From: Gordonibacter massiliensis (ex Traore et al. 2017)
GTDB lineage: Bacteria > Actinomycetota > Coriobacteriia > Coriobacteriales > Eggerthellaceae
Reading direction: 5' to 3'
NCBI GenBank assembly: GCA_900170005.1
Contig: LT827128.1
Span: forward strand, 1,488,001 to 1,552,000
DNA: 64,000 bases
Both the position numbers and the translations under genes were made by a program. Position 1 is the stretch's first letter; each line of letters starts with the position of its first letter. The notes under the pieces are model-generated. The model was not told the origin of the DNA and searched no databases. It worked only from the letters and a program-made list of their open reading frames with translations. Shown piece by piece: positions 42,039 through 51,820 of this stretch.

Positions 42039-43292
42039 TCAATACGGCTTCAGACCTTGATCGCTCCGCGAAAATGTAAAACCTAGACACAAAGCGAGGT
42101 AGATGGCAAAGGGATTAAAAAAGGCCGACTCTGCAATACTTGAGATCAATAAATAAGAGAAGCAGAGAATCACACCCAGGCGAGCGCCTTTAACTTGATA
42201 GAGATGCTTAAAAATGAACATAAGAGACGCGGCGTATGTTGCCAAACCCAACCATCCGAATTGCCCAAGAACGGTTGGCCAGAAAGTATCGGATAAAAAT
42301 GTTGCATGGCCAGGTGCAAGCCCTTGCACGCCACTCAGCCCATACTGGAAATACAGGGGGGAGTATGTGTCCAAATTCGCCGTAACCGCAGAGCCGTATG
42401 AGGCAAAACCGCCGCCTATGGGAAAAAAATTGCCCGCAATGCTAAAAGCAGTATTTGTGAGTTCTCTTCGCGCATATCCATCCACAGTGAAATATCCTAA
42501 ATACTGGTCATAGCCCAAAAACGCTACGAATACCACTCCAAGGAAAATGTGGAACGCGGAAATTCTTTCATGTTTTCCATACACCAATAGGAAAAAGACA
42601 GCGAGTACAACGAAAGCGATACCCTTTGAACGTAAGGATAGGCAAATAACAGCAAGTATCATTGCCAACCATAAAGCATTTTGCATCCGCTTGTTGCTAA
42701 GGACTACAGCGAGGCCCGCTCCTGTCGCAACAACAGCAGTCGGATGCCCTAGAACAAATTCAAAACTAGCGCGTAGACCATATCGCGAATCATGTCCCAT
42801 CCCAAAGTCAGCAAACAGATTAGCAATCGCGAGAATGAACATTAGGAACGTAAGAAATTTGGCTTCGGCCTCAACCAAAACAAGGATTCTCTCGTTGTTT
42901 CGAAATATGGCACAAGCGGATAGTGCCGCAATTGGAAATTTAATACAGGTAAAAAAATCTATAGCTATAGCACTCAAAGAACCTTGAACGCTCCATCGCA
43001 TGTTTCCAAAAAAGCCAATCGCGCAGGTAAGCACTAGAAACGCGATAGCCAGCTTCATATTCTTACTCATCCCGCGCACATCCCAGTGTGTACCCAAGCC
43101 TTTGACACACGCCGCAAGACACAAAGCTACAGTGGCTATTTCGTCCGCAAGAGTGAAACCAAAAGTATTCTGAATCCACCCTTGAAAAAACAGCGTATTA
43201 AACGCCACTAGCCAAAGAATGTCGGAAAGACGTATTTTAGCCAGAAATTGCATTCTGCTATCTAGATAGTTTTCCCTAGATACTTCCATCAT
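42039..43292 (-). CDS. O-antigen/capsule polymerase-like membrane protein (Wzy-like)
   Basis: 417 residues, about 10-12 membrane segments with a long loop near residues 270-330 (GYARRELTNTAF, GGGFASYGSA, GHATFLSDTFWPTVLGQFGW). The pattern fits O-antigen ligase/polymerase proteins that join repeat units outside the membrane. Two adjacent ATG codons (43292, 43289) lie inside the end of the preceding gene, 17 bp overlap, so translation is coupled to it. Assignment by topology and context rather than motif. Confidence 0.8.
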   Translation of the reverse strand: MMEVSRENYLDSRMQFLAKIRLSDILWLVAFNTLFFQGWIQNTFGFTLADEIATVALCLAACVKGLGTHWDVRGMSKNMKLAIAFLVLTCAIGFFGNMRWSVQGSLSAIAIDFFTCIKFPIAALSACAIFRNNERILVLVEAEAKFLTFLMFILAIANLFADFGMGHDSRYGLRASFEFVLGHPTAVVATGAGLAVVLSNKRMQNALWLAMILAVICLSLRSKGIAFVVLAVFFLLVYGKHERISAFHIFLGVVFVAFLGYDQYLGYFTVDGYARRELTNTAFSIAGNFFPIGGGFASYGSAVTANLDTYSPLYFQYGLSGVQGLAPGHATFLSDTFWPTVLGQFGWLGLATYAASLMFIFKHLYQVKGARLGVILCFSYLLISSIAESAFFNPFAIYLALCLGFTFSRSDQGLKPY

Positions 43293-44433
43293 CCATGAAG
43301 TAACTCACCTCATACCCCCCCCCCGACGGCGTCCATAGGCGAATCTTTACAAGAATGCGCTTCACATCCTGCTTGAAACAGGACTTGGGAAGACAGCGAT
43401 GGATGTTTTTGTTGAAGGGCATGCCCTTTTGCATGCAAAACAAAAATTTATCATGCGACTTCGGCCTCGCATGGGGGCGACGCAATTGCTCATTGTTGGA
43501 GATCGCCCTTCCCTGATCTACCGAGCACAACGTCGCATCTATGCTTCTAAGTAATTCGGCGCCTTTCCCAGTTTGAACCAATATGAGGGAAATTCCATCA
43601 GGCATCTCTTGAGTAAGTTCACTACCCCAAGAATCCCCTAGCGTTATATCAGATACTCGGGCATACTGAGCATAGTAGCAGTGATAGCAATTCTCCGTAT
43701 ATGTGAGACCTTCCAAAAAGGAAGTCATATAGCAATCTGTCACGCCTTCAACGTCAATATTTTTTTCGCCTTCGCGCAATTGAAAACGAGCTTTTTTGCG
43801 AAAAGACACATCCGCCAAACCTTTAAGAGTTAACTGCTTTTGAACAAGAAAGTTTTCTAAAACCGATGAGTCCGGTGTGCCATGGCAAATAAGGTCGATT
43901 GTATACAAATTAATTTCGAGAGACTGGCCAACAATATTTCTCATAGCCGAAACTTGGCAAGGCAGGCCAATAAACAGAACTTTTGTGTTTGATTCGAGCA
44001 ATTTCTCAACCTGACGATACACACCATAGGGGTTGCTTTTTACATATTTCGAACCCTTAAACTGGTCTATTTCATCTGGAGTGCGCGCAAGAGCGAAACC
44101 AAAAATACCGTTCTCGAAAGTACACGAACACACTACACCGCCGAACTCTACAAAAGCTCGCGCGATCGCGGAAGCTAATCCGCCCGAAGAAGAAGACCGT
44201 CTTTCTTCATAGGCGTTCGCCCATCCTTGATACCATGCCGTGGGCATACGCACTGTTGCAGGATGTAATTGTTGGCACACTCGAACACAGCGCTCGCAAT
44301 CGATGCATTCTTGCTGGTTAATTTCAACTGCGTATGCTTTAGCATTTCTCAGGATAGAAATTGCCTTGGTTGGGCATGCTTCTGCACATGCCATGCAACC
44401 TGCGCACATATCATTTTCGCAAATCGTCTGCAT
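43276..44433 (-). CDS. F420 hydrogenase/dehydrogenase beta-subunit-like protein of polysaccharide loci
   Basis: 385 residues. Two [4Fe-4S] motifs at C10-C13-C16-C20 and C43-C46-C49-C53, then the FrhB/FdhB N- and C-domains (SSSGGLASAIARAF, LPCQVSAMRN, DLICHGTPDSS, ITLGDSWG). In capsule clusters such proteins sit beside polysaccharide pyruvyltransferases, as here, and are presumed to modify sugars by redox chemistry; the reaction is not established. ATG 44433 overlaps the pyruvyltransferase stop (TGATG). Its last codons contain a run of ten G (43315-43324); a change of one base would stop translation within a few codons, before the polymerase start. Confidence 0.85.
   Translation of the reverse strand: MQTICENDMCAGCMACAEACPTKAISILRNAKAYAVEINQQECIDCERCVRVCQQLHPATVRMPTAWYQGWANAYEERRSSSSGGLASAIARAFVEFGGVVCSCTFENGIFGFALARTPDEIDQFKGSKYVKSNPYGVYRQVEKLLESNTKVLFIGLPCQVSAMRNIVGQSLEINLYTIDLICHGTPDSSVLENFLVQKQLTLKGLADVSFRKKARFQLREGEKNIDVEGVTDCYMTSFLEGLTYTENCYHCYYAQYARVSDITLGDSWGSELTQEMPDGISLILVQTGKGAELLRSIDATLCSVDQGRAISNNEQLRRPHARPKSHDKFLFCMQKGMPFNKNIHRCLPKSCFKQDVKRILVKIRLWTPSGGGYEVSYFMDDGSI
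43315..43324 (-). repeat. G10 homopolymer in coding sequence
   Basis: Ten G on the minus strand encode Ser-Gly-Gly-Gly near the C-terminus of the FrhB-like gene. Frames with 9 or 11 G meet TGA within 2-3 codons. Confidence 0.8.
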
Positions 44434-45536
44434 CAGCTGCACAATTCCGCTTGAAGAAATGCAATAGAATGATATCTTTGTTTTGAAATAATCTCATTCG
44501 CATTCGAAAAATCAATCGGATCTTCGGCTATTGCAAAATTGGCTGGCGAACGTACGGCCCTATGGGACAGCCCCGTCATACGTAGAAGGCTTTCGTTCCT
44601 TTCCGAAGTTCCATTAGCTGGCAAAATTTCAACAAACGGAACATTGAACAGCAAAGAAAAAACGGTGCCGTGAAATGAATCCGTGACGACGCATTTTGCC
44701 TTTTTTATCAACGATAGGAACTCATCAACTTTTGGAAGATATTTGAATTTTCCAGGTCTTGTTATTTGATGCAACACGGGAGAAACCCGAACAAGTTTAG
44801 TACCCAGCCTTTTTGAGACATCGCAAGCGCAATCGTCTACCAGCTTATTATTGTGTATCTGATATACAAGGACGTAGTCGCCAATCGACTTGCTTGAGGT
44901 GAAACTATCCCATTCTCTCCTGTCGAGCAAAAGCGTTGGATCCAGCACCTGCGTTGATTCATAGCCCCAATCTGCAATTCTTTTTACTGCGGAGTCTTCT
45001 CGAACACCTAGCCAAGAGTATTCTGCCAATTCTGCGCAGAATACTTTCTCTGCTTCTTCAGAGGACACCTCTCTACCAAAACTTGCCGCATAGGCAATTT
45101 TTTTACTATTGTCTGGAGCAAACGAAAGAAGATAGGCTCGATCGCAGTCATCCAAGACCATGGGCCCCCAAACTTGATCGCTGCCGGTCATGTAAATGTC
45201 AGCAGGTGGCAAGTCAGTGCAAAGCTCCTCGAAAGAAGTATATCTCCGAGTTAGATTTAGGTAGCGGTTTCGTTCATTTGCAAAAGACAATCCCGCCGCT
45301 ATGCTTTCAGGTTGACGAAGGGCAAGATACAACAAACGCTTTATTGTAGACGAATTCCAGTTCTGCTTACCTTTAAGAAGAGATGGTTCTATTTTCAATA
45401 TACTTTCGTCTGCGCGAATATAATCCACTATTAAACAGTTGTGCCCCATATCTTCTAGTACTCTTTGTGTGGCTATAGCCTGCAAGAGAGAACCGTAATT
45501 TGCTACAGCATGACGGGTAATAACTAGAACTTTCAA
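44433..45536 (-). CDS. Polysaccharide pyruvyltransferase family protein
   Basis: 367 residues from a TTG at 45536. The family pattern is clear: N-terminal NYGSLLQAIATQRVLEDMGH, YMTGSDQVWGPMV near residues 112-124, YAASFGREVSS, VREDSAVKRI, and DSFHGTVFSLLFNVPFV near 285-302. Family members put pyruvate ketals on sugars, giving the polymer negative charge. It forms an overlapping pair with the FrhB-like gene downstream. The ribosome site is weak (GGAG 10 bp upstream), and 68 bp separate it from the radical SAM gene end. Confidence 0.88.
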   Translation of the reverse strand: MKVLVITRHAVANYGSLLQAIATQRVLEDMGHNCLIVDYIRADESILKIEPSLLKGKQNWNSSTIKRLLYLALRQPESIAAGLSFANERNRYLNLTRRYTSFEELCTDLPPADIYMTGSDQVWGPMVLDDCDRAYLLSFAPDNSKKIAYAASFGREVSSEEAEKVFCAELAEYSWLGVREDSAVKRIADWGYESTQVLDPTLLLDRREWDSFTSSKSIGDYVLVYQIHNNKLVDDCACDVSKRLGTKLVRVSPVLHQITRPGKFKYLPKVDEFLSLIKKAKCVVTDSFHGTVFSLLFNVPFVEILPANGTSERNESLLRMTGLSHRAVRSPANFAIAEDPIDFSNANEIISKQRYHSIAFLQAELCS

Positions 45537-50338: not shown

Positions 50339-51133
50339 CTAACACGCCCCTTTGCCGGAAAACATGACGGAAACCGTCTTCTCAATCACTTTGAGATCAA
50401 CAGAAAACGACCTTTCCTTGATGTATTTGATATCCAACTCCACCATGTCATCGAACGAGGTTTCGCTACGGCCCGATATCTGCCAATAGCCGGTGAGACC
50501 GGGTTTCACCGACAGGCGACGCATGGCGCGCTCGCCGTACTGGGAGACTTCGTTTGGCAGAGGCGGGCGGGGGCCCACCGTGGAGAGCTGGCCAAGTAAG
50601 CAGTTCACGAACTGGGGAAGCTCGTCGATGGAGTGCTTGCGGATGAAACGGCCGATGCGCGTCACGCGTGGGTCGTCTTTGATCTTGAACAGCGGTCCGT
50701 CGGCCTCGTTCATTTCCTGCAGCTCCGGCAGACGCTCATCAGCGTCGGCGTACATGCTGCGAAACTTGTACATGTCGAAGGTCACTACCTTGCCGTCGGC
50801 GCCGATGCGACCGACGCGCTTTTGGGAGTAGATCGGGCTGCCTGGCGATTCCAGGCGGATGGCGATGCATAGGATGATCGAAGGAATGAGCAGCAACGCT
50901 ATTGCCGTCGCGCTGAACACGATATCGAACGCCCGCTTCGCAACCCGGTAGCCTATGTGCCCCTTCGCATGCGCACCGTCCGCCTCGCCGAACGCGACCG
51001 GCTCGGCGGCTACCTCGCACGGCAATGCGCCCTCGTCGAAGGCAAGCTCATCCGTTGGCTCCATCTCCTGCATGAAGTAGCGACCGCAGCGGTCAGCACC
51101 CCCCCCCCCCGTCGGGCGGTGGGACTGCGTCAC
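50339..51133 (-). CDS. Priming sugar-phosphate transferase with G12 tract at the start
   Basis: 264 residues from GTG 51133, which overlaps the LoaP stop (GTGA) and has GAGGA 8 bp upstream. Polyisoprenyl-phosphate hexose-1-phosphate transferase (bacterial sugar transferase family): one membrane hairpin (FDIVFSATAIALLLIPSI), IYSQKRVGRIG, TFDMYKFRSM, DPRVTRIGRFIRKHSIDELP, GPRPPLP and KPGLTGYWQISGRS. It loads the first sugar-phosphate on the lipid carrier, so all later steps depend on it. Codons 8-12 are a run of twelve G; with 13 G a TGA follows at once, with 11 G a TAG about 30 codons on. ATG codons at 51073 and 51064 are in frame after the tract and could give a shorter product, but ribosome sites there are poor. 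Confidence 0.9.
   Translation of the reverse strand: MTQSHRPTGGGGADRCGRYFMQEMEPTDELAFDEGALPCEVAAEPVAFGEADGAHAKGHIGYRVAKRAFDIVFSATAIALLLIPSIILCIAIRLESPGSPIYSQKRVGRIGADGKVVTFDMYKFRSMYADADERLPELQEMNEADGPLFKIKDDPRVTRIGRFIRKHSIDELPQFVNCLLGQLSTVGPRPPLPNEVSQYGERAMRRLSVKPGLTGYWQISGRSETSFDDMVELDIKYIKERSFSVDLKVIEKTVSVMFSGKGAC
51099..51110 (-). repeat. G12 homopolymer at the start of the sugar transferase gene
   Basis: Twelve G on the minus strand, codons 8-12 of the gene. The only tract of this length in the window and a classic slippage target. Confidence 0.9.
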
Positions 51134-51642
51134 GCGGTCTTCCTCACTACTTCCAAGCCCACGCTGGCGGGGACGGTGCGGCCGAACAGCGTCACGTCCA
51201 AGTAGGCGCGGCGCTTGTGGCGGTCGATCTTGCGGATGTCGGCCTCGAAGCCCATGAGCGGGCCGCGCGTGACCGTGACCTTGTCGCCTTTGATGTAGCC
51301 CTCGCTCATGCGCACGATGTGCTCGCCGTCCATGAACGACAGGAACCAGTCCTGCTCTTTTTCCGTCAACGGGAAGAACGAGTTCTCCTCGTTGCCCAGC
51401 AGGCGGATGGGCATGGGCACCCGCAAAAGCTCCTTGTTGAGCTCTTCGGCGTCGCTCGTGACGAAGAACAGGTAGCCGGGGAACAGCAGTCGTTTGACCA
51501 GCCGCCACTCGCCGTGGATGCACCACATGGTCTCGTATTCGGGCATGAAGCACTCCTCCAAGACGTCCGGGGATACCAAGCGGCGGCAAAGATCGCGCGT
51601 GGCGGCTTCGCGTCCCGCTTGCACCTGCGCCACGTACCACAT
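51130..51642 (-). CDS. loaP: NusG-like processive antiterminator, LoaP type
   Basis: 170 residues from ATG 51642 with AAAGGAG upstream. NGN domain (MWYVAQVQAGREAATRDL, LLFPGYLFFVTSD) and C-terminal KOW motif (VTVTRGPLMGFEADIRKID), and a length like LoaP proteins. LoaP is a specialised NusG paralogue that lets polymerase read through terminators in long polysaccharide or antibiotic operons. It is first in this 12-kb operon, and a nested hairpin lies in its leader. Chromosomal NusG is longer and sits in the secE-rplK locus, so this is not nusG. Confidence 0.92.
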   Translation of the reverse strand: MWYVAQVQAGREAATRDLCRRLVSPDVLEECFMPEYETMWCIHGEWRLVKRLLFPGYLFFVTSDAEELNKELLRVPMPIRLLGNEENSFFPLTEKEQDWFLSFMDGEHIVRMSEGYIKGDKVTVTRGPLMGFEADIRKIDRHKRRAYLDVTLFGRTVPASVGLEVVRKTA

Positions 51643-51675: not shown

Positions 51676-51762
51676 CAAAAGAAAAGAGGATGAACAGCTG
51701 CATGCCTCTCTCTTCCCGGCCCTCGGCCGGAAGGGAAATCGCCTGCACCTATTCATCCTCTT
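51676..51762 (-). terminator. Nested leader hairpin with T-tract ahead of loaP
   Basis: On the minus strand AAGAGGATGAA (51762-51752) pairs with TTCATCCTCTT (51694-51684), enclosing an inner stem CTTCCGGCC/GGCCGGGAAG (51733-51712), and is followed by TTCTTTTGG. This resembles an attenuator in the capsule operon leader and a target for LoaP. Confidence 0.65.
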
Positions 51763-51820
51763 GTCGATCGACGGAACGCGCTTCGCGACGATTGCGTCAT
51801 CTCAAGATATGTTCGTTTCC

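Follow-up and report, generated by a model that had tools for sequence, protein, structure and literature searches.

A run of twelve G within the first codons of a sugar transferase gene, directly behind the antiterminator gene loaP, probably flips a surface-sugar operon of Gordonibacter massiliensis on and off. The run keeps a fixed place in related species while its length shifts between in-frame and out-of-frame values, which makes an operon switch probable, and homopolymer phase variation of the transferase is, in our judgement, the best reading and a rather likely one. The features at the junction, all on the minus strand and numbered by the letters of the window (the whole stretch of 64,000 nucleotides that was analysed), are as follows.

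51130..51642, minus strand: loaP, a NusG-paralogue antiterminator (NF033641, 166.8 bits, cut-off 125), the gene directly before the tract
about 51139..51144, minus strand: AGGAAG, Shine-Dalgarno-like site of the GTG start (anti-Shine-Dalgarno duplex -6.4 kcal/mol)
51131..51133, minus strand: GTG start codon, sharing GTGA with the loaP stop; a start-forming overlap is kept in eight of eight genomes, the window included
51099..51110, minus strand: G12 tract, lying in codons 8-12 of the transferase (a run of twelve C on the plus strand)
51089..51098, minus strand: TGCTGACCGC, adjoining the tract on its 3' side, invariant in eight of eight genomes, with identity falling straight after it
51071..51073, minus strand: ATG at +25, a candidate downstream start that would bypass the tract; weak Shine-Dalgarno match (-1.3 kcal/mol), chosen by the ORF caller
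51062..51064, minus strand: ATG at +34, a second candidate downstream start seen in the sequence
50339..51133, minus strand: sugar transferase (phosphoglycosyl transferase) frame, in frame at G12 (PF02397, E 3.4e-60)
50360..50938, minus strand: Bac_transf catalytic domain (PF02397), 3' of every start considered

The TGA stop of loaP (51130-51132) and the GTG of the transferase overlap by the four bases GTGA, and from this GTG the frame reads V-TQSHRPT-GGGG-ADRCGRYFMQEMEP... for 264 residues, of which 65-257 form the PF02397 domain; with TIGR03025 the protein scored 263 bits, under the cut-off of 295.55. One G more brings a stop after 13 codons; with one G less the frame runs for 40 codons and stops about 29 codons beyond the tract. 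What the earlier note had said of the sequence was thus right: a G12 lies in codons 8-12 of the transferase, the gene opens at a GTG that overlaps the loaP stop and has a ribosome site, and the frame is lost upon gain or loss of one G. The assembled genome is in the in-frame state.

On these elements, a ribosome that ends loaP at the TGA would re-initiate at the GTG read there as its overlap, and would pass through the G12 within eight codons. Slippage during replication may add or remove one G. At an in-frame length the transferase would be made; at other lengths translation would end after 13 to 40 codons, so that the enzyme setting the first sugar on the lipid carrier would be absent or weak. 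Cells of one population would then differ in whether they start the LoaP-linked polysaccharide. The tract, its frames, its conservation and its change of length between species are observed; that slippage also takes place within a strain, that the upstream start is the one used and that polysaccharide is lost are what we infer.

Our search for loaP in 138 Eggerthellaceae genomes returned 33 matches at E <=1e-40 in 25 genomes, and 30 loci were read. Close loaP genes (79-100% identity) occur in ten genomes, and wherever such a gene is intact (nine of nine) a G10-G12 tract begins 15-32 bases after its stop. These nine genomes belong to genera g1, g8, g50 and g64 and comprise G000, which is the genome of the window, its sister species G003 of the same genus, and G001, G011, G084, G085, G086, G087 and G153. 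In the tenth, G002, the close loaP is frameshifted, followed by a different frame and without the tract. At the 19 other loaP junctions (located in 19 of 20 loci), no G run of seven or more was found from -60 to +250 of the stop; one other loaP junction, that of G073, has C11 at +149. A more distant loaP of the genome of the window, not among the loci above, is followed by a G10 about 50 bases after its stop, and the G002 counterpart by none. We read genus g50 (G084-G087) as Eggerthella, because all four genomes carry the 16-bp site of PMC13174815 and because G085 has three such sites spaced 2.06 Mb and 32.6 kb, matching the inversions in E. lenta DSM2243. A look-up of related loci gave one close relative among five. 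The junction pattern had no match in a scan of IMG/VR, plasmid records gave 19 matches, none over more than 80% of the query (those listed are five sugar transferases with 67-68%), and phage-collection records gave nine loaP matches, all below 60%.

The transferase is present behind the tract in eight genomes, and the lengths were compared with one genome per species. Counted from the start at the loaP stop, it is in frame in G000 and G003 (both G12) and in G011 (G10), and out of frame in G001, G084, G085 and G086 (all G11) and in G087 (G10). Length therefore varies beside constant bases, and both frame states exist among the relatives, as phase variation would have it, the variation being between species. 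Three in frame out of eight is close to the share that chance would give if frame were irrelevant, and this count alone says nothing about use. The ninth genome, G153, has a G11 within a 51-codon frame that ends in a TGA overlapping the ATG of the next frame, so that tract length there would decide translational coupling.

The kept position was set against 17 other tracts of at least 11 from the same genome as the window, a tract being counted as kept when a run of at least 9 stood at the matching place. Among the candidates scored (40 of 129 in G003, of 62 in G001, of 105 in G084 and of 78 in G085), at least five of the 17 were kept in G003, at least two in G001, at least one in G084 and none in G085, which makes at least one of 17 in the second genus; the loaP-junction tract is kept in all four genomes. 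With 40 of 62-129 candidates scored per genome, more of the control tracts may be conserved than were counted; spacers also diverge more quickly than loaP, and the control tracts are for both reasons an imperfect comparison.

Long G runs are abundant in this genome beyond what its short runs predict. The window holds 76 G/C runs of length 5, seven of 6, none of 7-9, one of 10 and one of 12, and extrapolation from the short runs would give 0.4-0.7 runs of at least 10 over the 3.95 Mb of the genome, where pattern counts find 34 (sixteen of 10, seven of 11, seven of 12, two of 13 and two of 14); the tract is longer than chance allows. A dinucleotide shuffle of the window, a weaker test, gave a mean of 2.32 G8 matches against 8 observed, with 2 of 100 shuffles as high. 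The six relatives examined have frequent G10 matches as well (32 to 138), and together with the excess of long runs this sets long G tracts apart in Eggerthellaceae as a class of their own. The genome-wide run statistics are made of pattern counts and of the stretches around tracts. According to a home-made ORF caller based on codon usage, a called gene overlaps six of the 34 tracts and 28 lie outside called genes, so that the genus may grow G tracts in spacers; the loaP-junction tract is counted among the 28 because the caller started the transferase past it, at ATG 51073. The six include a G10 near the end of an FrhB-like gene of the window (43315-43324). Two others stand in polysaccharide-type frames and are further candidates for phase variation: L085 (2276-3547), an internal G10, in frame, within a long frame with a C-terminal GNAT domain, and L096 (2537-4171), where a G10, again in frame, separates a hexapeptide acetyltransferase portion from a nucleotidyltransferase portion. 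In L079 (a LysR-type frame) and L098 (a Big_2/PASTA frame) the tracts lie near predicted starts, and for the sixth, L089, no protein-family match was found. Tracts are enriched near PF02397 genes to a modest and distance-dependent degree: within 15 kb lie five of 34 in this genome against 1.3 expected (p 0.009) and, among the matches listed, four of 21 against 1.4 in G085 (p 0.05) and two of 38 against 1.1 in G084 (p 0.31), and within 5 kb two of 34 in this genome (p 0.08).

Whether the tract matters for expression depends on which start codon is used. The upstream start has an anti-Shine-Dalgarno energy of -4.3 to -6.4 kcal/mol in all eight genomes, and the last loaP codon is an alanine codon, GCA or GCG, in all eight, which yields ATGA or GTGA; GCA makes up 3 of the 54 other alanine codons in these eight loaP genes, which are related, so that the start-forming codons are not independent. 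An in-frame ATG or GTG at +22 or +25 is likewise present in eight of eight, with a Shine-Dalgarno match of -0.9 to -2.2 kcal/mol in seven (-1.3 in the three Gordonibacter) and of -4.1 in G085, and three genomes have an ATG at +10 for which the G run itself stands at Shine-Dalgarno distance. We judge the upstream start to be the more likely one. Leaky initiation downstream is possible, in which case the switch may lower the amount of enzyme without removing it altogether.

The main alternative is that the tract is a hypermutable and harmless spacer, the transferase being translated from the ATG or GTG 22-25 bases past it. This would sit well with the presence of such a start in every genome, with a catalytic domain left intact from there, with the in-frame share of three in eight, and with the 28 of 34 tracts outside called genes together with the caller's own choice of a start past the tract. 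Base changes on either side of the tract are also mostly non-synonymous between the sister species (by eye), and the N-terminal codons of the transferase look unconstrained. The same reading has to accommodate downstream starts that, G085 apart, are weakly matched to the ribosome, an overlap at the loaP stop that forms a start in eight of eight, and a tract present in nine of nine genomes with intact close loaP against at least one of 17 control tracts kept in the second genus; we consider it unlikely, though the most likely of the rivals. Of the view in the earlier note that the tract is a phase switch, the recurrence in nine genomes with lengths of 10, 11 and 12 (three in frame, five out) holds, as does an upstream start with a Shine-Dalgarno match and a start-forming last loaP codon throughout; slippage within one strain is presumed, and the importance of the frame is less certain, given that each of the eight genomes has an in-frame start 22-25 bases beyond the tract and that the catalytic domain begins only at residue 65. 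On balance, the excess of runs, the kept position, the change of length, the control tracts, the upstream start and the in-frame tracts of other polysaccharide genes make phase variation of the transferase the best-supported reading, and the chance-like three of eight, the downstream starts, the start chosen by the ORF caller, the non-synonymous flanks, the 28 tracts outside called genes, the imperfect control and the modest enrichment near PF02397 genes speak against it.

A second possibility is that the tract tunes expression without any on/off state, as a pseudo-Shine-Dalgarno sequence, as the target of a small RNA or as a site of RNA-polymerase slippage, which in the last case would give mixed messages whatever the length of the DNA. 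Poly-G pairs with the anti-Shine-Dalgarno sequence at -9.7 kcal/mol, and in four of eight genomes its spacing to an ATG or TTG at +10 is usable (to an ATG in three), TGCTGACCGC after the tract is the same in all eight, and in Helicobacter pylori the RNA RepG is described as targeting a leader with a variable G-repeat (PMC8295292). The window, its sister G003, G001 and G085, however, lack a start codon at +10, and RNA folding shows no strong structure (z -1.84 in the window; +1.83, -1.11 and -1.58 for three other stretches, in which the frames are differently placed), and we regard tuning as quite improbable.

Identity drops after the invariant TGCTGACCGC, while loaP third positions agree at 60-97% among the genomes; the tract thus marks where a constant loaP module gives way to capsule genes that can be exchanged. 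As a caution on any function of the motif itself, 25 of 501 ten-base windows within loaP are invariant too. That tract and TGCTGACCGC are conserved merely as the recombining edge that joins different capsule gene sets to this module, and not through switching, would explain an identity of 10/10 after the tract and of 27-50% from +11 between most allele types, with transferases behind the motif down to 38% identity (window against G011), but it leaves the keeping and the variation of the tract unexplained and meets in G153 a tract with other flanks, so that we hold it very improbable, bearing in mind that a cassette boundary and phase variation can both be true.

Phase variation of the transferase would take effect in a putative LoaP-controlled polysaccharide operon: a LoaP above its curated cut-off adjoins genes of PF02397, PF00534, PF13439 and PF04230, and the cluster behind the tract encodes glycosyltransferases along with a polysaccharide pyruvyl transferase and a radical SAM protein. 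Five PF02397 genes are present in the genome, and the four paralogous transferases could soften any loss of capsule; the statement of the earlier note that the whole polysaccharide would switch is accordingly less certain. The same cluster contains a second tract, with these features.

43315..43324, minus strand: second tract, a G10 towards the 3' end of the FrhB-like gene
43276..44442, minus strand: FrhB/FdhB-like 4Fe-4S protein carrying the second tract (PF04432, PF04422)
42039..43292, minus strand: membrane-protein-like frame (polymerase-like by eye only), its ATG overlapping the end of the FrhB-like gene

When the second tract is out of frame, the FrhB-like gene no longer stops within the following gene but 12-17 bases ahead of that gene's ATG, and a change in the length of this tract could alter translational coupling to that gene, for which no NCBIfam match was found. 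Upstream of loaP, at about 51680-51764, a long inverted repeat, AGAGGATGAA ... TTCATCCTCT, is followed by a T-rich stretch (by eye); it is present also in G001, G003 and G011 and is possibly a leader terminator or a LoaP target. A look for tandem repeats of longer units over 36-53 kb of the window found one weak 10-base repeat only.

The nearest demonstrated case that we found is that of the sortase-pilus G-tracts of Bifidobacterium breve UCC2003, where populations with G11 and G12 are reported within one culture, the mixtures being measured by maximum depth sequencing, and frame is tied to pilus expression (PMC9187656). As described there, those tracts resemble ours in belonging to a gut actinobacterium, in their length, in their place in the first gene of a surface operon and in a frame that decides translation, polarity on downstream genes being proposed as well; they differ in serving pilus genes, not polysaccharide, and the accessible text of that paper mentions no loaP. 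Homopolymeric poly-G tracts are also described as switching surface genes in Campylobacter, Neisseria and Helicobacter (PMC6321876, PMC5320596, PMC2823697), which are members of other phyla, whereas the Gordonibacter tract lies at the start of a sugar transferase right behind loaP. Within the same family, megabase inversions that switch the capsule of Eggerthella lenta are reported to move capsule genes relative to loaP (PMC13174815), and in G084 and G085 we find their 16-bp sites in the vicinity of sugar transferase genes; this is site-specific inversion and not slippage. The terms homopolymer, poly-G and simple sequence repeat do not occur in the main text of that paper, which names slipped-strand mispairing once, as a general mechanism. 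As a cause at the present locus the E. lenta site, GATAAGCGCGGTTATG, was rejected, the window having no match with up to three mismatches; the genome has two-mismatch matches only. Among the matches listed in our literature search, in which subscription journals were mostly not covered, no work on G tracts in Eggerthellaceae was found.

Other candidate switches are found elsewhere in the genome. Outside the window there are 32 tract loci, and Pfam was run for 17 of them on 20 selected proteins, which is not an enrichment test; four tracts (G10-G12) were seen 37-73 bases before genes of c-di-GMP enzymes, on the same strand.

G000:C1:750780 (L076): tract before an EAL/GGDEF gene
G000:C1:908142 (L077): tract before a GGDEF gene
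G000:C1:1859894 (L084): tract before a GGDEF gene
G000:C1:2802433 (L093): tract before an EAL/GGDEF gene

At L077 the G12 directly precedes a -10-like TACAAT, and the same gene has G10 in G003 and G16 in G084; the arrangement suggests that c-di-GMP signalling may phase-vary here through promoter spacing. Away from the loaP-tract locus and outside the window, the genome also contains exactly two copies of GATAACCCGGGTTATG (allowing one mismatch), inverted and 1.32 Mb apart (loci L199 and L202).

G000:C1:1933179-1933194, minus strand: GATAACCCGGGTTATG, 220-260 bases upstream of a PF02397 domain
G000:C1:3249308-3249323, plus strand: GATAACCCGGGTTATG, 220-260 bases upstream of a PF02397 domain

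Within the roughly 2 kb read, a LoaP frame stands ahead of the copy at 3249 kb only, and the bases after GATAACCCGGGTTATG resemble those of an Eggerthella site (by eye). Since this layout matches the capsule inversion site of E. lenta, an inversion of 1.32 Mb is predicted. We would tentatively entertain, as a possibility and with some doubt, that G tracts and inversions belong to one surface-switching programme common to Eggerthellaceae, in which a toggle of the capsule-priming transferase, a tuning of c-di-GMP transcription and the 1.32-Mb swap would together afford a combinatorial and reversible choice of capsule and surface against phages or immunity. As to its c-di-GMP part, one of the four tracts stands before a -10-like box and was found again in a second genus.

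If our preferred reading of the loaP-junction tract is true, Gordonibacter and Eggerthella of the human gut would control the first enzyme of a surface polysaccharide by a slippage switch, alongside the capsule inversions recently reported for E. lenta. Reference genomes would be snapshots of different phases and not of different genes, and comparisons of phage sensitivity or surface phenotypes between cultures could be confounded by capsule state. The tract gains interest from being found in four genera and from lying among capsule genes, which in this family are linked with phage escape.

A few observations concern the G runs of the genome at large. Below about 1.35 Mb and past about 2.5 Mb most of them are on the plus strand, and in between most are on the minus strand; the GC skew of sampled stretches flips sign near 1.3 and 2.8 Mb, and the unequal arms would fit a rearranged replichore. 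At L090 (the G000:C1:2548169 region) a repeat of about 50 bases accompanies the tract and has dozens of matches in the sister species G003, several of them as inverted pairs. The intergenic G13 of L095 (G000:C1:3181941-3181953) corresponds to a run of 18 at the matching place in the sister species; in G001 the run there reaches 28, the longest encountered (loci L095, L172, L177).
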